The notes below the pieces were generated by a model. The model was not told the origin of the DNA and did not search any database. It worked only from the letters and a program-made list of their open reading frames with translations. DNA of 64,000 nt from Morinoia aosen (lineage: Eukaryota > Arthropoda > Malacostraca > Amphipoda > Talitridae), in the NCBI GenBank assembly GCA_030386875.1, contig CM059560.1:28266183-28330182 (forward strand). Reading direction: 5' to 3'. Below, one piece after another: positions 7,101-43,863 of the stretch (position 1 is the first letter of the stretch; each line of letters starts with the position of its first letter). The position numbers and the translations under genes are program-made.

Positions 7101-8550
7101 TACTATTTTCCTCCTAACAATTAGTCTCACCATAACCTTATCCTAAACACAAACATATAGTCTCATTCTTCCCATCAAGTTTCCATGTGTTCGAACATTT
7201 CATCAATGTTTGGTAAATGGTCTTGGTATATATTCATATCAATCTAAAAAATTTTCGTCAGTGATGAAAAATATCTCCTTTCAGTCTAGTTAAATGTAAT
7301 TGAGGTGTGAATTGCATCACTGAAATTTTCCTATTAAGGGTAGCTGACTGCCAGCGAGACTTTTCTTTTTTTTTTAGCTAACATTCATTCTGTGTCTGCC
7401 ATGCGTGCGGGATAGACTCACTCTCGACTACGTTCTACTAAATCAATAACATCAAAAGTCTTAGCATTGGCCTCAAGATCTATGAGTGTGGCCAACCAGA
7501 GACTCAATTTTGGATTATGATAAAGGGTAGTAAAAGAAGGGTGTCATTTCTTTGACAAGACAAAATATTTCTCTTCCGTGCATCGGGTGAACGAAGCTGG
7601 TTTCGGTTCCTTCATTTCGATGATAGTTTCTACCTCGAAAAATCTGGCTCCAGTTTTTGTAGCCCAGCCGAGGCAGATGCTCAATCTGGAAGACTTAGCT
7701 CTAGATCAGAGTTGGCGAGATTGCAGCCGCTATTTGTGAACAGATCTCCAGTTCGTGCGCGAAATATTTCTGAAAAAAATATCATTCGGATAAATGTGGT
7801 GACTGTTGTTTTTACCTTCGTTTAGGTTCCGTGAAGATTTTTATTTGTGACACAGTTTTCATCAAATTAAAAAAGAACAAAACTCACACTGAATTGAATT
7901 TAATTTACATCTTCCTGTATTCCTTTCACTTTCATGGTGGCATTAAGTTCAGTTTCATGCAACAAAAGGTAAAAAAATAAGGATATAAGTCTGTTAGGAT
8001 TCATGGGTTGTAGGTGGGCCATTTCAGTTATCTAAGCCTTAACTTTTAAAGTCCCAGGCCGCACCATTGCGCTCATACGCTTCAGTCTAAACTTTTTTTC
8101 CTAACTCCCTCAATGCAGGTCTCTGTGGTCTGTAGGAAATAATTTACAAGGGCTAAACAAAAACCCCAAAAAATAGTTGAAAAAGAAGAATAGGACACGG
8201 AGGAAGAAGACGAAGTATCAAAAAAACGCCATGTACATACACTATTTTTCATCAATCCTGCATGATTGAGGCCTAAACTTGTGGAAAATATTTGAGGTCC
8301 TTGGCAGTTGGGTTTTCTTAGCCGTTTACCCAAACAGGGGAATTCCACATTAGTATGTTCGGAAGTCACTATCTCTTGATGGGCTTTGGTTGTTGTTTTC
8401 GTTTTCACAGTCTTCTTGATATTTTTACTCTCCAGTCCCAAGAGTAGTAGGTACTTTAAATTTATATTAAATCTATTGTACTTTCATTTGAAATAAGCTT
8501 CACTTTCTAAAATGAGAATTTAGAACTGTTTTTTACCCCAACCCTATATA
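4173..8550. other. AT-rich DNA without a recognisable gene
   Basis: No gene is supported. A 108-codon open stretch at 5754-6080 (+) begins right after a stop with GTG and has no internal methionine after the start. A 119-codon minus-strand stretch at 8082-8441 has no known motif. An A-rich run lies near 5640-5660 and a pyrimidine run near 7362-7376. Confidence 0.5.
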
Positions 8551-8692
8551 ACATGAATATGTATACAAAGGTTACGGCATTGTTGAGCGATTGTTTATAA
8601 ACAGACGCTCAACAATGACGTAACCTTTGTATAAATATTCATGTTATACAAAGGTTACGTCATTGTTAAGCGATTGTTTATGAACAGACGCG
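8551..8692. repeat. Foldback with an adjoining direct duplication
   Basis: The left arm 8551-8589 and right arm 8606-8644 are reverse complements with two or three mismatches around a 16-nt loop. Immediately after the right arm, 8645-8692 repeats 8562-8608 in direct orientation, including the former loop sequence. One ~47-bp word is therefore present forward, reverse and forward again. This layout suits template switching during replication or a foldback mobile element. No coding capacity is visible. Confidence 0.75.
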
Positions 8693-9454
8693 CAGGAGCG
8701 ATTCATGTTCTCACGCTGATCCCTTCAATTCTCCGTGTTTGTTTCAATACGCGAGGGCAAATACAGCAGAGGCGCTTCATTTCCGCGAGATTCTATCATG
8801 GCTGATCTCCACGCGAGCGAGCATCCGACGCTGCCACTCCATCTGACGCTCATGTGAACCATTCCCACGTGTTGTATAGAACAGCGGAGTGATGGCTTAT
8901 CATTATCCTTACGTGTTTTGTGTATCTTGGTGCAGTGAATAGTTGAATAATAACGTTATTTTGACGTAAGATTGGTAAATAACGCGTCTGATAGCTTCCG
9001 TTTCATGTATATGCAGAGTTTTTAAATTTAGCTTGTGATAATGCGGTCCTGTTATGTGATGGGAGGGAAGCACATCATAGAAACACAGCGATCAGCAACT
9101 TCACACTGCTTCCAGCACCTTCTTCACGTGTGCCAACATTTGGCCCCGTCCAACCGGAAACGAGTGGGATGTCGTATGTAAATATCCTTTTCGCTTTTTC
9201 TGTCATCTTATAATACAAAATGGTGTAATACATCAAGATCGAATAAAAATGCTCATGAACACACCACGGGAATTTTTTTGAAGTTTTCTTGGTTTCCTCG
9301 ACCCTTCGAAATGTTTTTGTGCAAATGATGGGGGCTAATCATAACCGGATACATGAAAATGTACCATTTTTCCACAATGAGAGCAGCAAAGGAGCATGGG
9401 GCAGCGAAACAGGGAACACGTCAAGAAACCCAATTTTGATAAGAAGTCCAGTTG
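8693..9454. other. Left flank of the Penelope-like insertion
   Basis: No gene is recognised. The first ~200 bases hold several CpG dinucleotides, unlike most of the window. A 20-codon frame starting ATGGCTGATC at about 8799 is too short to judge. This stretch and 14820 onward were probably contiguous before the insertion. Confidence 0.45.
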
Positions 9455-9464
9455 TCGTACCGTT
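9455..9464. repeat. Left target-site duplication of the PLE (10 bp)
   Basis: The word TCGTACCGTT directly precedes the inverted PLE copy and recurs at 14810-14819 right after the last base of the long PLE copy. Both copies are identical. The first T of the right copy could also belong to the element, so the duplication is 9 or 10 bp. It marks the whole 9465-14810 block as a single insertion. Confidence 0.8.
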
Positions 9465-9497
9465 TATCGGTAAGTTCTGCGTGCAACGCAATTTTAA
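9465..9497 (-). repeat. 33-bp PLE tail at the outer end of the inverted copy
   Basis: Read on the minus strand, this segment follows the 3' end of the PLE and is identical to 12071-12103, which sits between the left pseudo-LTR and the long copy. It is absent from the right terminus, where the element stops at 14810 and runs into the target duplication. An extension of about this size next to the pseudo-LTR is known from Drosophila virilis Penelope (from memory). Confidence 0.75.
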
Positions 9498-9563
9498 TAA
9501 AAACGAAAGGGCAAAACCCAGGCGACATATCATTTTTAAAAAATTGTACGTCAAAAATTAGAA

Positions 9564-9589
9564 TGTTTCGGGCCTAGACCCATCTTCAG
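9564..9589 (-). ncRNA. Candidate hammerhead-type ribozyme motif (inverted copy)
   Basis: On the minus strand the order is CTGAAGAT, a short hairpin GGGT-CTAG-GCCC, then GAAAC. CUGANGA and GAAA are the conserved hammerhead core boxes, and hammerhead motifs are known from PLEs. One extra U lies between the first box and the helix, so this would be a variant form. The base after GAAAC is A here but G in the other copies. No self-cleavage can be judged from sequence alone. Confidence 0.5.
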
Positions 9590-9753
9590 CTAAACAATCT
9601 GAAATGACAATAGTGAAAACATTAATAAACTAGATCCATCATTGACTAAAACAATCTGAAATGACAACATTGAAACCTTAACTAGAGAAACTGTTATCTC
9701 GACAGTGGCACACATGAGAATGAAAGAAAGTGACAGGAGGATGGGGAAAGGTT

Positions 9754-10349
9754 CTAACTAACTATGTGAAGAGGGTGAGCGCTCTGCATGTCATTAAGCT
9801 GAGGCTTTAATTTGTGGATGTAGAGGGACTCTAAAATTCTAAGTTTAACTGAATTACTGGAATAACCTAATATGGAAAAGTCTGATGCAGATATTGATGA
9901 ATTGCACTGAAACTCTGTGTGAGACCTAATTGAGGAATGGGAAGGATGGCAAAGGCGTGCACTTGTTCTATGACTTATTCCTGCGTGTTCCGACCGCCTT
10001 ACACGCAATGTGCGGCTCGTTGAGCCCACATATGCAGATGCACATTGTGCACAACTGTATTTATAAACAACGCAGGAGCGGAGACATTCAGGAAGTTTGT
10101 CTTTAAAATGAAAAAGTGACCCAATGGTGAACCTATTTACTAACAATACTTGAAAAGAAATTTGTGGAAAGAACGAAGACAGTAACATTAGTAATTCTTT
10201 TCTAAGGGTTTCAGATGATGATCCTATATAAGGGAAGGTTATAAACATTTTTTGTTTTTCTGCGGTAGAAACAGTTGGGCTGATATGGTATATATTATTG
10301 AGAAACCGATTTATATGATATTGAATTAGGCGTAAGGGGTAGCCATTGG
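9754..10349 (-). pseudogene. PLE GIY-YIG endonuclease fragment, inverted copy
   Basis: The minus-strand frame encodes the C-terminal endonuclease of the PLE. The conserved pieces are VYKYSC (GIY-equivalent), YVGST (YIG-equivalent), RRSEH and ILESLYIHKLKPQLN, ending at LHIVS and a stop. The enzyme would nick the target DNA for target-primed reverse transcription. The frame is open from the stop back to the deletion junction at 10349, where it is joined out of frame to RT sequence. The ATG at 10246-10248 is an internal methionine, not a real start. With no intact RT attached this is a remnant. Confidence 0.85.
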
Positions 10350-11171
10350 AAAATTAATAGCTGGATGCTTGGAGTTCAGATAATTCAAAAATAGTTGGGC
10401 ATGAGAAGCATGGCGAAATAGAAGAAAGCTGTCGTCAATATACCTCTGATAAAAAACCGGTCTAAACTCAGCTGGACAGTTATCTATTCATGATTTTTCA
10501 TGGTAGCACATAAATATGTTTGCAAAGGTTGGACCCAGAGGCATGCCCATACCTAAACCCTCAAGCTGCTTGTAAAGTTGTCCGTCGAACAAAAAAAAGG
10601 AATTCAAAACACAAAGCTCTAATAATGTAGAAAATAATGATCTAGTCATACCAAGCACAGTTGAAACGCTACTAGTGAAAAGGTGATTGAGACAGATATC
10701 TATTGTTTCTCTAACTGGCACATTTGTGAACAAATTTTCTACGTCGAAAGAAGCCATGAAATATTCACCAGAATTTTCAAAATGAGAAATTCGGTCAATG
10801 AAAGCATATGAACTCTCCACAGTCAAATTGCTAGTAGTAAAAGGTTTCAAAATCGGAATAACAAATTTAGAGAGTTGAAAGCAAGGAGCGTTATATGCGG
10901 CAAATATAGGGCGAAGTTGAAATTTGGTAGCAAAATCAGATTTATGGATTTTAGGTAGTCCATATAGTAAACCAGGGCCAGAACCTGTCACAAAAAGTGT
11001 CTTATAAATTTCATTGGAAATTATAGATAGTTTTTTCAGTTTACGTTAAAAATAATTTACTTTGTCCTCTACTTTCAAAGCATACCGATAAATTGGTTCC
11101 GTGAAGCGTTCAAATTTAGTACAATCGAATATGATGACCTTCATTTTTTCAAGATAAACAGACCTGTCAAG
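10350..11171 (-). pseudogene. PLE reverse transcriptase fragment, inverted copy
   Basis: The minus-strand translation carries the RT core: GLPKIHK, FDVENLFTNVP with the first catalytic Asp, GMGMPLGPTFAN and, past an in-frame TGA, YIDDSF with the catalytic Asp pair. Two stops interrupt it: a TAA just upstream of the RT core (near 11046) and the TGA near 10486. Both occur at the same codons in the long copy. The N-terminal part is missing through 5' truncation at 11171. The 249-bp deletion removes the sequence between the palm and the thumb/linker. It cannot make a working enzyme. Confidence 0.88.
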
Positions 11172-11182
11172 GTCTGCAGTTT

Positions 11183-11809
11183 TTGCATAATGAGTTAGAA
11201 TTTTTAACACGCTTTTTTTCCTCCAATGGCTACCCCTTACATCTAATTCAACATCATATAAATCGGTTTCTCAATAATATATACCATATCAGCCCAACTG
11301 TTTCTACCGCAGAAAAACAAAAAATGTTTATAACCTTCCCTTATATAGGATCATCATCTGAAACCCTTAGAAAAGAATTACTAATGTTACTGTCTTCGTT
11401 ATTTCCACAAATTTCTTTTCAAGTATTGTTAGTAAATAGGTTCACCATTGGGTCACTTTTTCATTTTAAAGACAAACTTCCTGAATGTCTCCGCTCCTGC
11501 CTTGTTTATAAATACAGTTGTGCACAATGTGCATCTGCATATGTGGGCTCAACGAGCCGCACATTGCGTGTAAGGCGGTCGGAACATGCAGGAATAAGTC
11601 ATAGAACAAGTGCACGCCTTTGCCATCCTTCCCATTCCTCAATTAGGTCTCACACAGAGTTTCAGTGCAATTCATCAATTTCTGCATCAGACTTTTCCAT
11701 ATTAGGTTATTCCAGTAATTCAGTTAAACTCAGAATTTTAGAGTCCCTCTACATCCACAAATTAAGCCTCAGCTTAATGACATGCAGAGCTCTCACCCTC
11801 TTCACATAG
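11183..11809 (+). pseudogene. PLE endonuclease-domain ORF of the left pseudo-LTR
   Basis: The 208-codon frame covers the linker (FFSSNGYPLHLIQ, NRFLNNIYHIS) and the GIY-YIG endonuclease (VYKYSC, YVGST, RRSEH, ILESLYIHKL). It starts abruptly because the copy is truncated; the first codon is TTG and there is no upstream ATG. Its five-T run keeps the linker in frame with the endonuclease, which the long copy has lost. Near the end, loss of one A shifts the frame after HKL, so the final ~17 residues differ from the other copies. The family's catalytic Glu in ILESL is still present. Confidence 0.85.
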
Positions 11810-11978
11810 TTAGTTAGAACCTTTCCCCATCCTCCTGTCACTTTCTTTCATTCTCATGTGTGCCACTGTCGAGATAACAGTTTCTCTAGTTTAGGTTTCA
11901 ATATCATTTCAGATTGTTTTAGTCAATGATGGATCTAGTTTATTAATGTTTTCACTATTGTCATTTCAGATTGTTTAG

Positions 11979-12004
11979 CTGAAGATGGGTCTAGGCCCGA
12001 AACG
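11979..12004 (+). ncRNA. Candidate hammerhead-type ribozyme motif (left pseudo-LTR)
   Basis: The sequence reads CTGAAGAT, hairpin GGGT-CTAG-GCCC, then GAAACG. The boxes match the hammerhead core pattern CUGANGA and GAAA apart from one extra U before helix II. Its place at the PLE 3' end, repeated in every copy and in a second PLE family at 25870, supports a conserved function. Confidence 0.55.
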
Positions 12005-12070
12005 TTCTAATTTTTGACATACAATTTTTTAAAAATGATATGTCGCATGGTTTTTGCCCTTTCGTTTTTG

Positions 12071-12103
12071 TTAAAATTGCGTTGCACGCAGAACTTACCG
12101 ATA
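12071..12103 (+). repeat. 33-bp PLE tail between left pseudo-LTR and long copy
   Basis: The 33 bases from TTAAAATTGC to CTTACCGATA match the outer end of the inverted copy (9465-9497, opposite strand) exactly and have no counterpart after the right pseudo-LTR. They mark the boundary between the partial and the long copy and may be the true 5' start of the element. Confidence 0.75.
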
Positions 12104-12187
12104 ATTGTTCGAAATAATTATGGCATTAACCACTATAAGGCTTTTAGAAAATGTGAAAGTGACAGAAGAAAGTGTGAAAAAGTATAA
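12104..12187 (+). promoter_or_regulatory. 5' leader of the long PLE copy
   Basis: About 85 bases lie between the 33-bp tail and the stop codon that opens the coding frame at 12188. They are present only once in the window, because the two other copies are 5'-truncated. No TATA-like box or splice pair is convincing. In Penelope the promoter lies in and around the pseudo-LTR, so any promoter would include the preceding copy. Confidence 0.4.
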
Positions 12188-14556
12188 CTTGATCTTGAAT
12201 TTCTTGTGAAGTGTAAAGTTTACAACGTCTGTCCGAAGTTTCTCAGATTCAAGTTGTATCGCCGGTCCCTGCAGTCAGCGCACTTTTATAAAGCATGGCA
12301 AGCCCAACTTTTAACATGTGAAATAAACATGAAGAAATCTTCTTTACGGCAGCTCACGCAAGCAGTGCAGGACTCGGAAAAATCTATTTGTAATCTCTTT
12401 AGTCCATTCATGCGTGCCTTGATATTTAGATATGTTCGTCTCGTTAGTAATAATTTTATTACTGTTACAAAACAAACCCACGAGAAGAAACTAAACAATT
12501 TAGGAATTGTTAACAATATCCAGCCATGCGATCCTAGTAAAGTGGTTTTTAACTCCAGTTCTACCAATCTAACTTCTCGACTGAAAACTTTGCTGGCATT
12601 TGGATTAGATTTTTGTCTGCCGGTACATAAACTCAACTATTACCAGTATTTTCTATCTTTCGAAAAGTTAGCCTATGACGTTAAGAATCAACCTATTTTT
12701 TCTGATTTTGATTTTAATGATTTCTGTGATCGATTGAAATGTTTAGCCAATAAGTTTTATTTCAATTTTAATTCATCAAAAGTTTTCTCAGCGGTCATTA
12801 CACCTGGTGATATCTCTGAATTGAGGAAGCTAGGTAAAAATGAGGAAATTATTGTGTGCAAGCCCGATAAAGGAAAAGGCGTTGTATTACTTGACAGGTC
12901 TGTTTATCTTGAAAAAATGAAGGTCATCATATTCGATTGTACTAAATTTGAACGCTTCACGGAACCAATTCATCGGTATGCTTTGAAAGTAGAGGACAAA
13001 GTAAATTATTTTTAACGTAAACTGAAAAAACTATCTGTAATTTCCGATGAAATTTATAAGACACTTTTTGTGACAGGTTCTGGCCCTGGTTTACTATATG
13101 GACTACCTAAAATCCATAAATCTGATTTTGCTACCAAATTTCAACTTCGCCCTATATTTGCCGCATATAACGCTCCATGCTTTCAACTCTCTAAATTTGT
13201 TATTCCGATTTTGAAACCTTTTACTACTAGCAATTTGACTGTGGAGAGTTCATATGCTTTCATTGACCGAATTTCTCATTTTGAAAATTCTGGTGAATAT
13301 TTCATGGCTTCTTTCGACGTAGAAAATTTGTTCACAAATGTGCCAGTTAGAGAAACAATAGATATCTGTCTCAATCACCTTTTCACTAGTAGCGTTTCAA
13401 CTGTGCTTGGTATGACTAGATCATTATTTTCTACATTATTAGAGCTTTGTGTTTTGAATTCCTTTTTTTTGTTCGACGGACAACTTTACAAGCAGCTTGA
13501 GGGTTTAGGTATGGGCATGCCTCTGGGTCCAACCTTTGCAAACATATTTATGTGCTACCATGAAAAATCATGAATAGATAACTGTCCAGCTGAGTTTAGA
13601 CCGGTTTTTTATCAGAGGTATATTGACGACAGCTTTCTTCTATTTCGCCATGCTTCTCATGCCCAACTATTTTTGAATTATCTGAACTCCAAGCATCCAG
13701 CTATTAATTTTACTATGGAAGGAGAAAAAGAAAACTCATTAGCATTTTTAGATATTTTATTGAAAAGACAGGGTCGAATACTCCAAACTTCAGTTTTTCG
13801 TAAATCGTCCTTTTCAGGATTAGGTTCGAGCTTTTTTAGCCATTGCTCTTTTCAATTTAAAATAAATAGCTTAAAAACCTTACTGTCCCGCGGGTATAAA
13901 ATTTGTTCTAATTACCAGTTTTGCATAATGAGTTAGAATTTTTAAAACGCTTTTTTTCCTCCAATGGCTACCCCTTACGCCTAATTCAATATCATATAAA
14001 TCGGTTTCTCAATAATATATACCATATCAGCCCAACTGTTTCTACCGCAGAAAAACAAAAAATGTTTATAACCTTCCCTTATATAGGATCATCATCTGAA
14101 ACCCTTAGAAAAGAATTACTAATGTTACTGTCTTCGTTCTTTCCACAAATTTCTTTTCAAGTATTGTTAGTAAATAGGTTCACCATTGGGTCACTTTTTC
14201 ATTTTAAAGACAAACTTCCTGAATGTCTCCGCTCCTGCCTTGTTTATAAATACAGTTGTGCACAATGTGCATCTGCATATGTGGGCTCAACGAGCCGCAC
14301 ATTGCGTGTAAGGCGGTCGGAACATGCAGGAATAAGTCATAGAACAAGTGCACGCCTTTGCCATCCTTCCCATTCCTCAATTAGGTCTTACACAGAGTTT
14401 CAGTGCAATTCATCAATTTCTGCATCAGACTTTTCCATATTAGGTTATTCCAGTAATTCAGTTAAACTTAGAATTTTAGAGTCCCCCTACATCCACAAAT
14501 TAAAGCCTCACCTTAATGACATGCAGAGCGCTCACCCTCTTCACATAGTTAGTTAG
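12188..14556 (+). pseudogene. PLE reverse transcriptase / GIY-YIG endonuclease, long copy
   Basis: One interrupted frame of about 790 codons, near the usual PLE length. It opens at 12188; the first ATG is at 12329. Order: N-terminal helical region; RT with GLPKIHK (13100-13120), FDVENLFTNVP (13313-13345), GLGMGMPLGPTFAN (13502-13543) and YIDD (13619-13630); a linker (FRKSSFSGLG, SNGYPLRLI); GIY-YIG endonuclease with VYKYSC (14242), YVGST (14278), RRSEH (14311) and catalytic-Glu region ILES (14472). The RT copies PLE RNA and the endonuclease opens the target. Three lesions: TAA at 13013 in place of a Leu-type codon, TGA at 13571, and a four-T run at 13919-13922 that shifts the frame where the left pseudo-LTR has five T. 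The first two are also in the inverted copy. Confidence 0.93.
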
Positions 14557-14641
14557 AACCTTTCCCCATCCTCCTGTCACTTTCTTTCATTCTCATGTGT
14601 GCCACTGTCGAGATAACAGTTTCTCTAGTTTAGGTTTAAAT

Positions 14642-14746
14642 ATTGTCATTTCAGATTGTTTTAGTCAATAATGGATCTAGTTTATTAATGTTTTCACTAT
14701 TGTCATTTCAGATTGTTTAGCTGAAGATGGGTCTAGGCCCGAAACG
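14642..14746 (+). repeat. Tandem 57-bp duplication in the PLE 3' UTR
   Basis: The word ATTGTCATTTCAGATTGTTT occurs at 14642-14661 and 14699-14718. Each copy is followed by related sequence: the second by the hammerhead-like CTGAAGATGGGTCTAG, the first by the decayed version GTCAATAATGGATCTAG. The same pair is present in the other two copies of the element. The ribozyme-like unit was therefore once tandem and the upstream unit has decayed. Confidence 0.7.
14721..14746 (+). ncRNA. Candidate hammerhead-type ribozyme motif (long copy 3' end)
   Basis: Boxes CTGAAGAT and GAAACG flank the hairpin GGGT-CTAG-GCCC, as in the left pseudo-LTR. The motif lies 64 bases before the right end of the element and after the endonuclease stop at 14554-14556. 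A short or absent helix III would make it one of the minimal PLE-type hammerheads. Confidence 0.55.
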
Positions 14747-14809
14747 TTCTAATTTTTGACATACAATTTTTTAAAAATGATATGTCGCCTGGTTTTTGCC
14801 CTTTCGTTT

Positions 14810-14819
14810 TCGTACCGTT
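14810..14819. repeat. Right target-site duplication of the PLE
   Basis: TCGTACCGTT is identical to 9455-9464 and follows the CTTTCGTTT end of the element. See the left copy for the one-base ambiguity at the boundary. Confidence 0.8.
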
Positions 14820-15372: not shown

Positions 15373-16451
15373 TTCACTGCTGAAATACCGGCAGGGAGCT
15401 GGTGAGTCGTCTTCAATTTACAGCCGGTGGGGAGTTGGCAAACACGGTCTTAAAGCGCTGGAGCAGCGTTGGTCATGCCATGGTTGAGGTTATAAGGACA
15501 TCCTCCGCAAACAATGGTACTGAACGATGTCTGAGCAGTTACTGACATCGACCGTGTCCTAGTGCCGCCATTGTGGGAAATTATAACTGAGTAGTCATTT
15601 GAAACCCTTGAAAGAGGGGCTCTTGGGTTACTTATAGTTCCTTCGTTTTTTTTGTAGTAGTGGTCAACAATTGAAGTCGTCTATAATTTGTATTCCATTC
15701 TCAGCCAAGACTCTTGTCTTTTATTTTTATTACGTTTGGTCTCATGGTGAATCTAACGCCATGAATTGTCTCCCATTAGCATTGGTCGTTCCCATTTCGA
15801 GAAAAGGTGATAATGAACATTACAAAATGCGATACAATTCTTTGATCTCTATAAGACTGCTTGATAGTAACTTTTGTCGTTAATTTAGCTCTGCACCATT
15901 CACATCAAGCAATAATTTCGATAATCATTCTGAGCTTTTAAGGGCATTTCAAATGAATTTGGGCATTAGTATTCAACAAGAAACGTATCCGTATTTTAAT
16001 CATTATAGCTCATGACAATCGTTTGACGATCGCTGTGAAATACCTGTTTGTCTTTAATTGAAAGACGTGATAGGGTGGTGTAAAGAAATCTGGGTCTGAG
16101 CTTAATAACAGTTTTTCATTTCACCAGACTGTCCTTGAGCTCATTATTTTAAAAGAGTTTTGTATGAGTGTTGGCATAATAAACCATCAATTTACTTATC
16201 TCATGTCTTATGTGTTTTTATGGCATTCTATCATGGGAGTAGCTCGGTACTTTAATTTCTATACTTCTATGCTTTTCAATACATTCTCATTCGACTAACA
16301 CACATAACATTATAACTTTTGAAACAGCTCTGGTCCATGAAAAAGAAAAGAAAGAAAAAATGTTTATTTCCAAGTTGCCACATGAGATACGAGTACATGC
16401 CAACATATTGGCTTTTAAAAGTTTCTTAATATCGGACATCCTAAAACAAAT
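15373..16451. other. No gene recognised; GC-richer patch 15380-15580
   Basis: Between 15380 and 15580 the sequence is richer in G and C and holds two related words, CCGGCAGGGAGCTGG and CCGGTGGGGAGTTGG. No coding frame extends through it. The rest is AT-rich and featureless to my reading. Confidence 0.45.
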
Positions 16452-16876
16452 GTTCCATACGAGGAGTACTAATTGACAAACCATCCGAGGTGTACAAGTA
16501 GATAAGCCATACGAGGTATAATAATAGACAAACTATACGAGGTGTACTAATAGACAAACTATCAGAGGTGTACAAATAGATAGACCATACGAGGCATATT
16601 AATTGACATAATATACGAGGCGTACTAATAGACAAACCATTCGTGGTGTGCTAATAGTCTAACAAAAGTTCTATACTAGGAGGACTAATTGACAAACCAT
16701 CCGAGGTGTACAAATAGATAAGCCATACGAGGCATAATAATAGGCAAACTATACGAGGTGTACTATTAGACAAGCTATCAGAGGTGTACAAATAGATAGT
16801 CCATACGAGGCATATTAATAGACAAAATATACGAGGCGTACTAGTAGACAAACCATACGTGGCGTGCCAATAGTCT
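16452..16876. repeat. 26-bp minisatellite in a 216-bp higher-order unit
   Basis: About 16 monomers of 26 bp, consensus near GAGGTGTACTAATAGACAAA followed by CCATAC. The monomers fall into two blocks, 16452-16667 and 16668-16876, and each monomer resembles the one at the same place in the other block more than its neighbours. The larger period is 216 bp (eight monomers plus eight bases). Both blocks end with the deviant monomer GTGGYGTGCYAATAGTCTA. The apparent minus-strand proteins across it with repeated LYTSD and SISTPR words are only read-through of the repeat. Confidence 0.9.
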
Positions 16877-18577
16877 ATCTCTGTCAAGGGTAGTTGAATG
16901 AGAAATGAAAAATACCATCTCTTGGATATTTTATATTCCAAGAGATTCCGGCATAGCGCCCCTAGTCTTCTTTTTCCTACTACGATAATTTCAACTAAGA
17001 ACATGAAAGTGGAATAATTTCTAAATTCTCTATAAATTTAGTTTTACATCTAGCGATTTAATTCAACACAAAGATCTTGCAAAAATGCATGCTAAGTTGC
17101 CTCTTTTCACAGCCCTAACACCAACGTTGTTGTAGGACTTCACGTAATTTACATACAAAGTCGTCAAGAAAATCAACCTGGAAAAAATCCCGATACAAGC
17201 CAGGGAAAAACAGTAAAGGCCAAGATGCAACAACTTACCCAGCATAGATTGTTGTGTACATTTAATTAATAGTAACACTTTGAATTGAACAAAATATTTG
17301 TCATCATTTTTTGAGAAAGTTGTGTACAATATATCGCAGCTAACATAAATTAATTAATTCCAACCTACAGCAACATATTCAGGTTAATTCATATTTTACG
17401 TTATTTTTCATTCTTTCATGTTCATACAAACAATTCCAAAACAAATACTTTGTAAGAACGCTAGAATTCTTTTAAAATTGTGCTTAGAATTTGAAGGAGA
17501 TGCCTGCGACATTTCCAATGTTTTTCTTATTGTAAAAACTAACGCGTTTCGATCATCTTGAATTTTTTGGTTCACCGTTGATCTTCAAAGAATATTCCAG
17601 CATGATTTAAATTGATGTTCATCCCCTTAAGTGAAGCCTTTCCGACTTCATAAAATACTTTGAACTTTCTTACGAGCTTCGAAGGATATTTCATTGAATT
17701 TTGGAAAAAAAACAAGCGTAGCAAACTCGTGTTGATCCGACTAGGAAACCACTTCTCTGTAAAGTGCTACGTGCCCCAAAAATGCTGCGACTTTTCCTTT
17801 TGAAGTGAGCTCCAGTGACTGCCAGCGCTTGAGGCCCTATACATCGAGACGCTTTCTTTTAATGCCCAGCGTTCCCTGGAACGTTCATGGTGCCATTTTT
17901 CGACAAACTAATTTGAAATTAAGAGCATTCCAAGCCCCACCAAGGGAAGATAGAAGAAATTTGTAGAAGGGATAGCAGCTCTTTTCTCGCGAAATTTTGC
18001 GAGTCACATTTGCTTTCATGGAAAAAGGAAGCGTGATTCTACTGATTTACTTCCGCAGAAGTTAGACAGGAGGCAAGCCACTTGGTCAGGGAAAACAACG
18101 TTGTTCCTGGAAGTCGTGCACGGCCAATTAAAAACTGCTCTTAAGGCCTGAATTTGAGGAAACGAATTTTTACTCGTCGAGGATGAGCGCAAAAATGAAA
18201 ACGATGCGTATGCGATCGCTGTTTAATTAACGAGTTCCTGAGCACATGTACCTATTGAATTTTAAGTTCATGATGAATGGAGAGCTTGTGTAGAAAGTAA
18301 AGACCAATTTCTGATCATGGTCTAATTTTAACAATGTTGCAATTACACCAATTACGCCAATTTAGATGCATCTGTAATTATGGCTGTCTACCCGTGTGGT
18401 GCAGCTGCAATCACGGAGGCTTCTTGGTGCTGAAAATATTTCTTAATCAAGGAACGATTAATTTTCCTTCAAGGTAATTTTTCAAAACTAATTTTAATTT
18501 ATTTTGTTTTTAGCGTTTAATGACGAACTCTACTTTTGGTTTTACCCTATTTTTCCCCAACCAAAAATTTGAAGTAT
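16877..18577. other. No gene recognised
   Basis: AT-rich sequence with scattered short open frames, none with motifs. The longest on the minus strand (17063-17329) looks hydrophobic but has no family likeness. Nothing repetitive was noticed. Confidence 0.45.
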
Positions 18578-18780: not shown

Positions 18781-19108
18781 CGGATTGTGGGGTTTCAAAA
18801 GGTATCTCCTCCAACAGTTTTTGAGCAACAGTAATGATATGGGTATCACTAAATGCGGAAAGACTTGGGCATTACAGGATGTTATATGGCGATTCGAAAT
18901 TCCTTCCAGTCAAAAATTGTGACGTCACATGTACGAAATTTGACGAAAAAAGTATGATCTGGAATTTTTTTTATTTCAAAGTACGAATTTGGAGAATGCC
19001 ATTTAACATCCGTAATGCCTAAGTCTTTCTGCATTCAGTGATACCCATATCATTCCTGTAGCTCAAAAACTGTCGGAGGAGATGCATTTTGAATCCTCCA
19101 CAATTCCG
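18781..19108. mobile_element. Foldback / MITE-like inverted repeat element
   Basis: The arms at 18781-18890 and 18998-19108 are reverse complements at roughly 85% by eye, sharing for example GATATGGGTATCACT and TTTTTGAGC. The middle is about 107 bp and non-coding. The outer ends (CGGATTGTGG versus CGGAATTGTGG on the other strand) agree, then similarity stops. No convincing target duplication flanks them, so it may be old or a locally formed foldback. It lies 160 bp upstream of the transposase pseudogene, but no link is shown. Confidence 0.7.
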
Positions 19109-22506: not shown

Positions 22507-22538
22507 GCAGGATTTGGAGCGCATGCTCCAAATCCTGC
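22507..22538. repeat. Perfect 14-bp hairpin heading a minisatellite
   Basis: The arm GCAGGATTTGGAGC is followed by GCAT and its exact reverse complement. The word TTTGGAGC recurs at 22778-22785, inserted between the last two minisatellite units, so the hairpin sequence and the array are linked in origin. Confidence 0.85.
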
Positions 22539-22549
22539 TTAACCAAGTT

Positions 22550-22796
22550 ACCGGTACGAACATAAGCTACCGGTACCAACATAAGCTACCGGTACGAAAA
22601 TAAGCTACCGGTACGAACATAAACTACCGGTACGAACATAAGCTACCGGTACGAACATAAGCTACTGGTACGAACATAAGCTACCGGTACGAACATAAAC
22701 TACCGGTACGAACATAAGCTACCGGTACGAACATAAGCTACAGGTACGAACATAAGCTACCGGTACGAACGTAAGGTTTGGAGCTACCGGTACAAA
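22550..22796. repeat. 19-bp minisatellite, 13 units
   Basis: Twelve head-to-tail units of 19 bp with consensus ACCGGTACGAACATAAGCT run from 22550, and a thirteenth starts at 22786 after an 8-bp insertion. Each joint forms the 8-bp palindrome TACCGGTA. Unit differences are single substitutions, for example GCT to ACT in units 4 and 8. Units 4-7 and 8-11 follow a similar pattern, hinting at duplication in blocks of four. Confidence 0.92.
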
Positions 22797-25531
22797 CACG
22801 ATGAAACTAATTGTGTGGTGTACAGAACAAATAGACATCAGAAGGAGGTAGATTTTATATCTGAACAGCGTTCAAAATTGCAGCTGCGTTGATTTCTCTA
22901 AGACTTTTCCTCTGAATAAATTTTCGATTTACCTCTCTTTGATTTTACAAACCATGTGATCGCAATTAGTTTTTTTAGGTCATTGCAAGCAAAGTGTGAT
23001 AAAAAATTCCATTCTAAACTATCATCAATCGTTTTTTAAAGGAAGAATTATTCGTTTGTACGATATCTAGTTTGCGCAATGACTCCCAATCCCCATTTAG
23101 TTAGTCTACGCGCACTTATATTGATGTACTCACTGATATATAACAATAGCTAATAGTTGGACGAGTAAAAGGCATTGACTGACTTTAAGGTGAACTTTCT
23201 CCAGTCGCTAGAGAAAACACAGGAATAACATAATATGTTCTCATACTCTGACACCGACGCCGAAGAAGACATCGCTTCAAAGAGAGATGTACACGTCACG
23301 AAAGTCGTTTTCAATGCGTTTGTTGTGTAGGAATTCTAAGGCAATAGCAGATTCTTAGACATGTTTCTTGTATAACATTTCCGTTTTGCAGTGTAAGCAC
23401 CTAACGCTTGGTAAGGACCTAACCCTTGGGCTATTTGAGTTCGTCACTGAAATACGAAAAAAGAAACAATGCGGCTGAAAAGTTGATAGCATCTTGCTAT
23501 GTTTGGGTACACACCAATGCATAAATTCGAAATTTATTCTGCAGAGAAGTAATTCGTTTCAATTTATGTTGAGCTTACTCCTTGATTAGAAATAAAGATG
23601 CTACTGGAGAACCAAATTCAATTTGATGTAAGACTAACATGTGAACGGACGTTTTTATGTTGCTGAAACGATCCCACTTGAAACGAGAAAAGTAATTAAA
23701 TATTAATGGGGAGTGATAGATCGTATCTTCAAGATGTCTATCTTCAAGAAGTAAATTTTTGCCTCCACTCTGACTGACGTTCAAGACGAGCGCAAGAGTT
23801 CAACATCGCTGCCAATGATATGCGCGACTTGGACTACAGACTGGGATTTTGCTCTGCACAACTCACGGTGGAAGGAGGGCTCTGCATTCCGTACATTTCC
23901 CGTCTGCAGAAAATCGTCCAATTACCAAACATTTTATAAAGCATTTTCCGATGTCGGACGTACGTTTTTAGCACGTATATTGCTCTCTTGCTTTTTTGCA
24001 TTTGGAGCGAATAAATCTTATGAAATATTCATTAATGGTTTCTTACCCCCTAAGAGAGACTGTCTCTCACAAATAGCAGATGCACTCAAGAATTTTTCGT
24101 CGTAGTTGAAGTAGGATTCCGCTGAAAATTATTGGCCAATCCTTCTTGTGAATCTTGAGGTCATGAACAAACTTTTGGTACGAAACGAAGAAATGACGAC
24201 GGCATGCAGTGGAGCTCGGAAAACATGAGTCGATGTAAAGAGGAAAGTAATTTAACCACACGTGAAATGACCTAAATATGGCGTTGTAAAATTATGACTA
24301 TTGATGTCGATTTACGACCCTTAAGAAAGTAATTTACATTTTTCTCTCTAGTGAATATACGGTTTTTGTTGTGCTAATTTTGAAAATATAGTTTTTGCGT
24401 ATCTATTTCTGATTTTTTATTGGAGGCTTTTCAAATTGCAATGATTACATTCAAAATTAGGAAATTTATGTCAATTTTCATGTATTTCTCTGCAAAAAAT
24501 TGATAAAGACATGTCGCACACCGCAAGTCAGCACTTAGAACGAATATTCTTTCGAAGAACATTTGGAGTATAGTTCCGTAAAATTTTTCTCCAAACTCAG
24601 CCCGCACGTTATGACTTGAGAGGTTCCTTGTGTGGACTCAACGCGAGGTCTGTGCTTCAATGTGCTTCTTTCTTTTTCAGTGAGCGCAGCAGAAGGCAGC
24701 AGTTCACATGACAGCTGAAGACTGCGGCCACTGGGGGGAATACAAGCAGACACAGCTATCATTGAGGGTGCATATAGTTATGAAACGATTCTTTATTACT
24801 TAAATAGTTACGTCAATTACCTTGGTCAAAGGCCAAATCATGCAATGAAAGTTCATGTTTGCGGCAGATAGGTATAGAGGAAAATACTCACTGGTACTGG
24901 ATTAATAAATTAAATTTAAGCAGGATTAAAAAGACTAAGGTTTATTTCCTACTGTTATACTGAGGTTCCAGGGTTAATATAATTCTCCGTTAAAAACGTT
25001 CCTTATTTCAGGTTTTCGCTCATTGACCGATCTACTCTGAAATTAACAACCCGTACCGGAGGTCTGAAAAGTGATGATTAAAAAAATGCAATGCTAGATT
25101 ATTGTTGTCAGCGACATGACGTCAAATCTCGAGTGCTATACCGTTCCTCAACGCTCCTGCTCTCAGCACAACCAGTGAGAATTCTAAATAATGTACACTT
25201 GAATCCATTGCGATCCGTTCAAGCTTGTCATTGACTCCCTTTGAGCTTCATTCAGTGCTTGAGATGTTCTGATCTAATGGACGTGAATCCATCTTCAAAC
25301 AAGAGTACTTTCATGAGTCATGCAGAACTCCACTAGGCCGTTAAGATATGCTAATACCTGCATATTTTCCCTTCGGCAATTTGAAGGAAAAGGGGAATAC
25401 TGTTTTATTGAAACGGTGGGCAAAGGCAAGTGAGTGTTAGTTTATTTTGGCAGTATTAAAAAAAAAGAGTCAATGTAGGAGTTCCACATCGAGACGAAAG
25501 AAATACGTGCTGATCGTAACATCTTTAATAA
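22797..25531. other. No gene recognised
   Basis: A 96-codon plus-strand frame at 23815-24105 and a 75-codon minus-strand frame at 24535-24762 have no family motif. Short words repeat near 23396-23430 (GTAAGCACCTAACGCTTGG, GTAAGGACCTAACCCTTGG). Confidence 0.45.
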
Positions 25532-30162: not shown

Positions 30163-30298
30163 TGCAGGGTGAATGGCACTTTGTTGAGCGAACTTCAATA
30201 TAAGGTTGAGACCGTTGAAATAAACACTTTTTGTTCAACAACTGTGTGGACAGAAATATTTTATTAAAGAGATACAAGGACTTGAAATTTGAAACTTA
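30163..30298 (+). repeat. Left TIR of the Tc1/mariner derivative
   Basis: Pairs with 30813-30946 on the opposite strand at an estimated 80-85%; both share the exact word ATAAACACTTTTTGTTCAA except for one base. It ends near GAAACTTA. Confidence 0.88.
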
Positions 30299-30446
30299 GT
30301 TGAAAAAATTTGCACTTCGAGAGTGGCCTCGAAATGAAAGGTAAAAGTTAGGAAATAATTTTCGTAATGAACACAAGAAACATAATAACAGCCTTAATTA
30401 TTACGACGACAAGAAACAGATTTTTAAACTTGGTTGGGGTGTTTAA

Positions 30447-30722
30447 AAAAGATGTTCTAAAAGAGGTCATGGCGGCCTTATCACTTGGCCACCAAGGTCT
30501 CCTGATATTACGCCCTCAGATTTCTTCTTCTGGAGACATTTTAAGAGTTTAGTGTACGAAACACCGATTCATTCCGAAAAAGGCCTCATCGATAGAATTA
30601 CTGTGGCATCCTCTAGAATTCGTGAAACTCCTGGTGTCTTCGATCGCATCCGGCAATCATTGCATCGGCGTTTGAACTCCTGCATCGCATCAGATGGGCG
30701 TCATATTGAACATCTTTTGTAA
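30447..30722 (+). pseudogene. C-terminal transposase fragment (DDE, IS630/Tc1-like)
   Basis: A 91-codon open frame without ATG, bounded upstream by TAA at 30444. It carries TWPPRSPDITPSDFFFW, the third catalytic segment of the DDE domain, then HFKSLVYETPIHSE, GVFDRIRQSLHRRLNSC and the ending GRHIEHLL. The ending matches that of the transposase at 20358 (GRHFEHLL), so the two belong to related families. The frame has no stops, hence this copy decayed by deletion more than by point mutation. The first two catalytic acidic residues are missing. Confidence 0.88.
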
Positions 30723-30812
30723 ATACCTAACCCGATTTAAAAATTTATGACTTGTGATCATAATAATTAAGACTGCTATACTTTTTATTTTGTTCATGAT
30801 AAATCTGTTCAA

Positions 30813-30946
30813 TAAGTTTCAAATTCCAAGTTCTTGTATCTTTTTAACGAAACATTTTTGACCACACTGTTATTGAACAAAAAGTGTTTATCTCAAGTCT
30901 CAACGTTATGTTAAAGTTTGTTCAACAAGATGCCGGCCATCCTGTA
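30813..30946 (-). repeat. Right TIR of the Tc1/mariner derivative
   Basis: Reverse complement of the left TIR, starting at TAAGTTTC and ending CCATCCTGTA before the flanking TA. A few indels separate the two arms. Confidence 0.88.
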
Positions 30947-40841: not shown

Positions 40842-41055
40842 TTTGTATCCGCCTTAAGGGGTATTTAAACAATTAATGGAACAATTTTACTATGGCAAAT
40901 CTTAGTACTTATCGTGAGCACTCTTTTTCTTACTTAAATGTTGTTTCTATATGAAGTTCCTAAAGTTTCATTACGCTATAGCTTGTTCCACGAGCAATAA
41001 ATGAACTAACGTTCTACACGGCACAGTACACTTCTCTTTCACTAACTTTATAGTA

Positions 41056-41159
41056 GTACAAATAGCTAATTTAAACGTGTTTAAATTAGCTTTTGTACAG
41101 ACCAAACTCGTTGAACAAGTTGAAATGCAAATACAGACCAAACACGTTGAAATGCACAC
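41056..41159. repeat. 20-bp inverted repeat followed by a direct duplication
   Basis: The arms GTACAAATAGCTAATTTAAAC and its near-complement (one base missing) at 41056-41098 meet around GT. Directly after, ACAGACCAAACTCGTTGAA at 41097 is repeated as ACAGACCAAACACGTTGAA at 41133. As at 8551, a foldback sits beside a direct repeat. Confidence 0.75.
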
Positions 41160-41856
41160 ATTAGTTACAAAGCGTAGAGTCGAGTTACAGTCTCGGTATT
41201 GCCTGAATACTCTTTAGAAATCAGCTTCAACTTTATAGAAACAATACGCTTGCTTCCTCCGTAATTATAAATAACTTGTTTACACTCTAACGAACTCAGA
41301 CAAGAAGGCAAGTAACATATGACTGAAATTTGTCAAATGCTTTAATAATTAGAGCGAAATTCTACTGAAATTTGGAATTTCGTCCATGCATGGTTGCTTA
41401 GTGGTGAACCGTGCACCTCTATAGCAGCTTGATTACAGGCCCATATCGCTGCGCCATGCGATGGGTACGCGCGTGATCGGAGTCATCTCATTTTTGGTTG
41501 TTCTGACCCGTTATCTTCTTCGTGACTTTCCTATTATTGACGAGCAGATGAAACACGCGTTTTTTTCGAAATTCCGAGTGGAGTATTTTCTTTTTGGCAG
41601 CCAGTGAAGCTTCAAAGCAGCCCAAACAAGGTATTCAGCTGTATGATTATTTTCGTTCTGCTTCATCTCTTTCACAAGGGAGTATGTAATCAGTTTTGAT
41701 ACTTTTTACCCATGAATATGCGTATTTACATTTAAACAAACATCATTACTTGAGTGAGACCTTGAATTGAGTTTTTCGAAAGACTTTATGTTCATTAAAG
41801 AATTAATTGATTACTAGTTACCGGTTCAACCCGAGTATCGGTTTGTCCGACTTGCC
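41160..41856. other. No gene recognised
   Basis: A word resembling a pol III A box (TTGCTTAGTGG) lies near 41394-41404, but no good B box follows at the right distance. A diverged copy of the 15290 repeat unit is at 41602-41630. Confidence 0.35.
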
Positions 41857-41974
41857 TAAAAATAAAAAAACAATAAAAAAAATAAAATTAAAAAAATAAA
41901 AAAAATAAAAAAAATAAAGAAAAAAAATAAAAAAAAAATAAAAAAAATGAAAAAAAATAAATAAATAAATAAAT
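41857..41974 (+). repeat. A-rich low-complexity tract ending in AAAT repeats
   Basis: About 118 bases of almost only A and T, mostly AAAAAAT variants with a final (AAAT)n. It could be the expanded tail of a retroposed sequence, though no body was identified. Confidence 0.85.
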
Positions 41975-43595
41975 AGTTTTCTGCAAATATAGACACCAGT
42001 GGCTTCAATTTAATACCTCACTTGACCATATACACTCAGCCAATTTTCTAAACAGACTCGGACAAATTTCGAGTTACTGAATTAAGAATATAGATATTTA
42101 AACTTGAAAGAACTGTTCTCGTCAGTTATGCTTATATCAGACGCTCCACCCGATGGCGATCATAGATGTTTGTGCGGAAACAGACGAATTCTTTTTCTAA
42201 CAAAACACAAGTTTCAAAACCACTCTTTCGATAAATTTTCATTAATAAATTTCTATATTGCACTACCCACAAGCAATGCCAAAAGAATATTACTTTCCTC
42301 CTAGATCCCACTTTAATACAAATGTTCAGATGACTCACGTTCCTTAAATTGTGCACCAAAGCAAGAATTTAGGCAGCGGTATGAAGAATTCTTCGGCTGA
42401 TAATTTCCCAAGTTGAAGCATATTAAGTAAACATCGAGCTCGTATTACTGATGAGTGTTGCGAAACAATGCGTGCTCATTCGTGAGCTGTGCATACTTCC
42501 ATGAACACGTAGCCTGCAAAATGTTGTATAAATAATTTTCTTGGATTTTGTAATCAAAGCGCGACTTGCTAGCTCGCATCTAATCAAGTCATGATTTTCA
42601 CTAAGGCTGAACGACGGATTTACATTCGTACGTTGAAGGAGATGGTCAGATTTTTTTCCCACGGAAAAGACGGCAGGCGCAACTGATCGATCAGATCAAC
42701 ATGCCAGCAGGCAGGTATGAAAATGCTTGCAATGAAACAGAAATGCTAGTACACAAGGTAGGAGACTTTCATTTAAAAAGGATGTGAATACTCTTAAGTT
42801 TAATTTTTATTCCTGATTTTGTTCGGCTTTACGGAGTTTTACGAATTCTGTAGTACCTTTCATGACTTGTGAATGCTAAATCATGATGAATTGTGTTCGA
42901 TTTTATTCGTTAGAGCTGCACACTGATGAAATACTGTTCTTAACGCACAACACTCAAATAAATTTACGTGTTAATACTGTTTGTTAGAAGGGAAAAGTAA
43001 ACTTCAAACAAGTATTTCATTTTTACGGAATGTATCTTTCATCAAACAACAAAAGCACGTCGAGGACTCTAAACTTCGCAGTCCTCCGAAACGCCGTTAG
43101 GCTGCTTCGAAAAGCACGTTCCGCCATAACTTTCTTCTTCGTCACTATGCTTTCGATCCTCAGAGCTATTTGATCATACATCGCCCCGAGAGGCGCCTGC
43201 AACTGCTCGGAAATTGCGGGCTCTTACGAGATTACCTCTTTTTGCTGCGAGACGAAACACACAGCACGTCTTGCCACGTCTTTTCCTTGACAGATGCGCT
43301 GGAGACAATCGTTGCAATGCAGGTTTAGAAACGTGGATTCGTTGTGGAATGGTAGGAGAAATTTTTGTGTTTTGTCAGTTTCGTGTAGTTTCACGTTCTT
43401 ATTATTGGTATTATCGGTACGCTGTCGAGAACAAGTAGCGTACCAGCACAATCGAGTTTCTAAGATTAGTAGATAAGTGCTTTCTCGAACAGTAGCTGAA
43501 CAGAATGGAACAGCGAAGACTCTTAAAAGCGTTTGAACACAAGGGAGAGATAAACGTGAAATGCAAGAAGTCACGAAATGCAGAGCTTGTATTTC
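41975..43595. other. No gene recognised
   Basis: Overlapping short frames on both strands near 43214-43574 (up to 116 codons) carry no known motif. Confidence 0.4.
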
Positions 43596-43863
43596 ATTCT
43601 ACGCAGCCATTTAAAAAATGGTCCGTGTTTTTTTTCTGGCCATCGCGCAGAGTTAGAGTAATAAAATGTAGAGTAACGTTTGTTCATTTATTGTGTTTGG
43701 AACGACCTATCGTAATGAAAATTTAGGAACTTCATCTAGAAACAATATTTAAATAAGAAAAAGAGTGCTCACAATGAAAACGGAGCTTCTATTGGCCAAA
43801 ATAATCCGGCCATCTCCGCGTATTGTATTCTACGCAGCCATTTAAAATATGGTCCGTTTTTTT
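43596..43863. repeat. Pair of ~37-bp direct repeats 231 bp apart
   Basis: ATTCTACGCAGCCATTTAAA then AAATGGTCCGT and a T run at 43596-43634 recurs at 43827-43863 with two or three differences. The DNA between is non-coding. It may be the direct ends of a small unrecognised element or a local duplication. Confidence 0.7.

Follow-up and report, generated by a model that had tools for sequence, protein, structure and literature searches.

How Penelope-like elements integrate is not settled: both self-priming on antisense RNA (PMC3846280) and target priming with internal start sites (PMC11167929) have been published. Here we analyse a compound insertion of such an element at positions 9455-14819 of a 64-kb window, by which we mean the whole stretch of Morinoia aosen DNA under study (C5:28266183-28330182), together with related insertions elsewhere in the 1.99-Gb genome. 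The insertion is a Penelope-like element, probably a canonical, endonuclease-bearing one, in an arrangement that has already been published. What the family adds is a pairing rule: in 33 of the 34 insertions made of two head-to-head copies with both outer ends classifiable, one outer end lies at each of two adjacent sites, A and B, and the remaining insertion is B/B.

The arrangement itself is described in PMC3846280 for Pen2a_Av, a Penelope element of Adineta vaga; Pen2a_Av is a single copy, whereas here a large family permits counting and the inverted copy reaches deep into the open reading frame (ORF). Poseidon of Anolis carolinensis (PAc; PMC11167929) is alike in having tandem units and, at the edges of its tail, two neighbouring start sites; a hammerhead motif precedes these sites. 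An optional tail has been published for Penelope-like elements, and it is in the Anolis element that start sites were found to delimit it; in vitro, the Anolis enzyme cleaves and extends both target strands and starts at two adjacent internal sites (PMC11167929). Penelope of Drosophila virilis, which we liken by description, has a similar pseudo-long terminal repeat (pseudo-LTR), inverted partial copies and a tail, as cited in PMC11167929 and PMC3846280. LINE-1 twin priming (PMC2837659) also leaves two segments, one inverted and one direct, inside a single target-site duplication.

In the window, repeat finding and blastn placed three segments between identical 10-bp repeats:

9455 to 9464, unstranded: left target-site duplication TCGTACCGTT (2 exact matches in 64 kb, 0.04 expected)
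9465 to about 11171, minus strand: 5'-truncated inverted copy that lacks ~240 bp internally and has an A end on its outer side (repeat finding, blastn)
9465 to 9499, minus strand: the "tail" (site A class), carried by the inverted copy on its outer side and missing from the long copy's right end (sequence, end mapping)
10343 to 10350, minus strand: deletion joint in the inverted copy, where long-copy 13719-13959 is gone and 8 bp match both sides
11172 to 11176, unstranded: filler between the head-to-head copies, 5 bp by eye and 9 bp by blastn ends
11177 to 12067, plus strand: direct 5'-truncated copy, the pseudo-LTR (blastn 11181-12067, first bases by eye)
12068 to 14809, plus strand: long copy, one repeat unit of ~2.74 kb, its coding frame broken and its right end a B end (ORFs, blastn, end mapping)
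14810 to 14819, unstranded: right target-site duplication TCGTACCGTT (exact-match count)

Shuffled sequences average 0.04 occurrences of TCGTACCGTT; the window has exactly two, at 9455-9464 and 14810-14819, and the inverted, direct 5'-truncated and long copies all lie between them, as an earlier note made from the sequence had described. The inverted copy is the reverse complement of long-copy 12890-13718 (99.3% alike) and 13960-14809 (98.5%), with an additional 32 bp at its outer end that match 12073-12104; in element coordinates this end, at q204, lies ~36 nt downstream of the long copy's right end, at q168 (q1 being window 11900). The direct copy is 98.1% alike to 13919-14809 and runs unbroken through 12068-12107 into the long copy, the two forming one stretch of ~1.3 repeat units. 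Its 5' truncation was correctly noted before, but it is not a separate piece. The term "complete" holds for the anatomy of the insertion and not for its coding frame, which is broken. The inverted copy also lacks those ~240 bp internally. The 5' ends of the two arms lie at unlike points of the unit, 818 and 1847. Alignment of the three segments with one another, the check proposed in that note, gave overlap and high identity (98.1-99.3%), with 3' parts that differ by 1.5-1.8%. The filler and its neighbouring bases can be read as a short snap-back (CAGACC..GGTCTG), which may reflect a snap-back origin.

The outer ends of the family fall into two classes some 30-36 nt apart, which correspond to the published optional tail (A with it, B without), and the sites and the structure between them are as follows:

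12070 to 12075, plus strand: site B, a putative reverse-transcription start without tail (the 27 B ends used for microhomology lie at q163-176, window 12062-12075)
12078 to 12090, plus strand: small hairpin TGCGT-TGC-ACGCA between sites A and B (fold)
12098 to 12106, plus strand: site A, a putative reverse-transcription start with tail (25 A ends at q194-218, 20 of these at q199-207)

Each query returned 619 to 1161 family candidates at first look, 40 of which were scored. Mapping the loci with the unit revealed 5'-truncated copies arranged head to head in many pairs, their 3' ends pointing outward, and the pair boundaries were placed by the target duplication. In the end-mapped set 29/30 pairs are A/B, the exception being L010 with B/B. 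Searching with 13919-14809, a query free of the tail, yielded 54 matches (40 of 931 candidates scored), and 21/22 of the pairs with both outer ends seen are A/B (1/22 is B/B), so the rule is not produced by searching with the tail. Tail-bearing queries added twelve further pairs, all A/B: eight of these are in the end-mapped set, one is at C20:15.89 Mb (L069/L076), and three, C21:16.93 Mb, C21:61.89 Mb and C21:62.12 Mb, are known only by coordinates (the tailed end of the last might continue into another unit). If the 30 A and 32 B ends of the first 31 pairs were combined at random, so strict a pattern would arise with P=7e-8. Seven starting end coordinates were set by hand (L010, L014, L032, L039, L047, L056, L058), and only L010 changes class relative to raw blastn. 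The count leaves out L033/L034 (one insertion seen twice by its flanks, with the inverted outer end lost); C21:79.47 Mb and C20:11.76 Mb (L070/L071), both truncated at one outer end; insertions that have no inverted copy; L005, L013 and L012/L020, in which the inverted partner is unseen or odd; L060/L061, where the copy is seemingly interrupted; and places where the query fell short of the 3' ends. We did not find the one-A-one-B count in the accessible parts of PMC11167929, PMC3846280, PMC11722881 and PMC12910113, and we do not claim that it is absent from print. The idea that the longer copy always comes from one site was not borne out: it is the A copy in 12/30 pairs and a B copy in 15/30 (the B/B case included), with two equal and one not comparable.

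Several observations fit a shared template for the copies of one insertion. The inverted and long copies of the window have ten variants in common that are seen in none of the other copies compared. Across the family, shared exclusive variants occur at 2.07 per kb within insertions versus 0.053 per kb between insertions (such variants occur in 9 of 22 own pairs and in 55 of 1404 other pairs). Both copies in the window also carry premature stops at 13013-13015 and 13571-13573, which are present in 0/12 and 0/30 other segments, one further segment being gapped at the first stop; the template probably already had a broken frame, with the enzyme supplied in trans by another copy. The direct copy does not carry the single 3'-part variant that the other two share (unit position 1908), and this one site suggests the preceding unit of a tandem RNA as its template. 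By coordinates, the whole compound is repeated at C9:29.56 Mb and C15:3.83 Mb, with the same read-through from direct into long copy. The earlier proposal that all three segments were laid down in one event is therefore supported, within the reach of one genome, by the single 10-bp duplication around them, the recurrence of the compound at two loci and the ten exclusive variants. As for the further proposal that the locus records how such elements integrate, the arrangement was already in print and the locus alone is less special than first thought; it is the family-wide A/B rule that is the addition.

The outer ends also bear marks of contact with the target. Microhomology, taken as the match of template to target beyond the last unambiguous base, averages 2.16 nt at 25 A ends (0.52 in shuffled targets, with a maximum of 1.32 in 2000 shuffles) and 2.26 nt at 27 B ends (0.74, maximum 1.37); 8/60 ends with unaligned boundary bases (4 A, 4 B) were left out, and one of these, the B end of L008/L016, lies at q156, outside the main B cluster. 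Common substrings of at least 10 bp are present at the two target edges in 26/30 pairs, and the chance level, estimated for 20 pairs over narrower stretches, is an average of 4.7-6.5 with a largest value of 12 for substrings shared with the right ends of other insertions. The inner joints of the 30 pairs comprise overlaps of 1-7 bp in 13, flush joints in 2 and fillers of 1-38 bp in 15, a pattern such as end joining would leave.

We consider it likely that a canonical endonuclease-bearing Penelope-like element inserted here in a single event, with both strands of one target priming reverse transcription. The observed core of this reading is two cDNA-like (complementary DNA-like) copies set head to head, with their 3' ends at the target, an enclosing 10-bp duplication and outer ends A and B. 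The element's endonuclease would cut both strands ~10 bp apart, and each freed 3' end would pair with sense RNA over a few bases. One end would use A and the other B, which flank the small hairpin just downstream of the hammerhead-like motif. Extension of the top strand would yield the inverted copy, and that of the bottom strand the long copy; the latter would continue into the unit before it on a tandem RNA and, by copying the 3' part of that unit, give the pseudo-LTR. End joining would then connect the inner ends and leave a short filler. The template RNA would be multi-unit and mobilised in trans. The strict pairing of A with B suggests that loading of one primer is coupled to that of the other, for example by an enzyme dimer on one RNA. 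A bolder proposal, which we regard as an even call, is that A and B are not alternative starts and form one paired platform flanking the hairpin, on which each dual-primed insertion would have its two nicked target strands loaded, the first at one site and the second at the other; the tail would then not be optional, the enzyme would probably act as a dimer on one RNA, and inverted and tail-less copies would be obligate twin products of one loading step.

A number of observations weigh against priming from both strands at paired sites, or against a common template. L010 was A/B in the raw blastn reading, became B/B once its duplication was placed, and counts against the rule. Ten insertions (L006, L007, L009, L021, L035, L037, L044, L062/63, L064/65, L072/73) have no inverted copy in at least 1.3 kb beyond the 5' end, and dual priming is therefore not universal; these insertions terminate in A or B, and at least two of them, L035 and L044, carry a target duplication. 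No common substring of at least 10 bp was found at the target edges of 4/30 pairs, and in 27 insertions swapping the A and B edges did not worsen target complementarity; target complementarity as the decider of which strand takes A was accordingly not borne out (observed better in 10, swapped better in 11, 6 ties). For the Anolis enzyme in vitro, PMC11167929 reports neither a difference in start site between the two strands nor homology to the cleaved DNA, whereas here A and B each occur once in 33 of 34 pairs and both ends have short target microhomology. The hairpin at 12078-12090 is thermodynamically ordinary (z-score -0.36). As for the shared template, 13/22 own pairs share no exclusive variants, and the minority variants shared by the inverted and long copies of the window amount to 12/13 in the ORF part and 1/13 in the 3' part. 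The 3' parts of the window's segments, as noted above, differ by 1.5-1.8%, and some copies elsewhere are nearer (0.9%): the long copy's own partners rank 11-14, those of the direct copy 13 and 22, and those of the inverted copy 3 and 12. The shared variants could also stem from gene conversion between the arms, and no third locus with shared ORF variants was found among the 40 scored candidates.

Among the other mechanisms that might yield such a locus is self-priming, in which an (antisense) transcript folds back, primes itself and has its product inserted; palindromes at inverted junctions led to this proposal for the Penelope elements of Adineta (PMC3846280), and the junction in the window can also be read as a small snap-back. 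A fold-back would, however, be expected to yield matching arms, whereas here the arms have unrelated 5' ends and differ at their 3' ends; nor does antisense self-priming readily explain microhomology with the target at both kinds of 3' end, and we regard it as unlikely. We reject a simple fold-back of a single cDNA, as the arms end at unrelated points and A is unlike B. The divergence of the 3' parts, with nearer relatives elsewhere, is what favours the serial insertion of one element inside or beside another. Against this stand the single duplication around everything, the continuity of element sequence across the direct-long junction, the recurrence of the architecture at C9 and C15 (by coordinates) and the ten variants exclusive to the inverted and long copies, and such a history is highly improbable; we reject three separate insertions on the one enclosing duplication and the architecture that recurs by coordinates.

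Dual-strand anatomy would also be accounted for if each strand picked A or B by chance on two uncoupled RNAs, and the lone B/B case shows that A plus B is not absolute; the near-exclusive mixing of pairs makes such independence very unlikely. Barely credible is twin priming of the LINE-1 type, in which a second primer anneals inside one RNA, so that the 5' part ends up inverted and the 3' part direct. The two LINE-1 segments span different parts of the RNA; here, in contrast, both cDNAs begin at the 3' end, with A and B as fixed starts, and share most of the extent of the inverted copy, an overlap that refutes the strict form. What speaks for it is that an inverted truncated segment within target-site duplications is its published hallmark (PMC2837659).

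Assignment of the insertion to the Penelope-like elements, and the matching of its pseudo-LTR and inverted copy to an arrangement known for Penelope, agree with what had been suggested earlier. The locus has a reverse transcriptase domain, a partial tandem with a pseudo-LTR, an inverted partial copy with a short target-site duplication, and a 30-40-bp tail at one end; a pseudo-LTR partial tandem is also present at L020 (by blastn mapping) and, by coordinates, at C9 and C15. The coding and ribozyme-like features of the window are:

about 9562 to 9589, minus strand: hammerhead-like core, a further copy with a change
11979 to 12006, plus strand: hammerhead-ribozyme-like core (CUGAAGA, stem II, GAAACGUU; sequence)
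13070 to 13573, plus strand: reverse transcriptase fragment (Pfam RVT_1, E=6.5e-6, 26.4 bits, below the curated cut-off of 29.6)
13921 to 14556, plus strand: C-terminal frame with a GIY-YIG-endonuclease-like motif (ORF translation)
14721 to 14748, plus strand: hammerhead-like core, a further copy

At a sister locus the homologous frame is uninterrupted (L003:348-2135, 596 codons) and matches RVT_1 above the cut-off (41.8 bits, E=1.3e-10). The motif of the C-terminal frame resembles that of a Penelope-type GIY-YIG endonuclease; a Pfam search of the window frames and the L003 frame gave no GIY-YIG match, and a PDB sequence search gave zero matches at E up to 1. The letters CUGAAGA, stem II and GAAACGUU resemble those of a hammerhead ribozyme. 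In the minimum-energy fold of the core stems I and II are paired, yet the fold is not better than those of shuffles, and an Rfam search reported no hammerhead even at E up to 5. Just ahead of the core a stretch is duplicated (36 bp, 83% alike, 57 bp apart) at 9592-9684 and 11904-11976, perhaps as a decayed second ribozyme copy.

Elsewhere in the window, a small cluster of palindromic repeats with 50-bp units lies left of the insertion at 8547-8694, and tandem arrays with periods of 26 and 19 bp are present at 16367-16954 and 22507-22829. Inverted repeat pairs of 81-85 bp with 85-89% complementarity, at 18791-19096, 30215-30896 and 40898-43788, are possibly DNA transposon ends. Other loci of the family showed rearrangements of their own. 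At L012:2390-3037 (C2:74.403 Mb) the tail and flank are repeated in inverted orientation ~580 bp past the A end, as if by palindromic duplication. At L020 and L012 (C2:74.392-74.403 Mb) a long tandem Penelope element is, by coordinates, seemingly interrupted at unit 1037-1041 by ~6 kb of sequence with a 5-bp duplication of the kind left by LTR retrotransposons, and at C24:86.116-86.120 Mb (L060) a copy is seemingly split between unit ~1330 and 1345 by ~3.8 kb of other sequence. L033/L034 and L035/L040 each represent the same insertion with the same flanks, present twice 0.3-1.1 Mb apart on one chromosome; pairs at C6:2.23/2.40 Mb and C1:21.5/22.2 Mb are alike by score only. Segmental duplication or assembly doubling is possible for all of these doubled insertions.

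If each dual-primed insertion indeed uses one A and one B, the genomic record would favour target priming from two strands on sense RNA as the route by which Penelope elements integrate, and the rule would give a sharp prediction for cell-free assays. Furthermore, premature stops shared by two copies of one insertion would suggest that broken RNAs are mobilised in trans.

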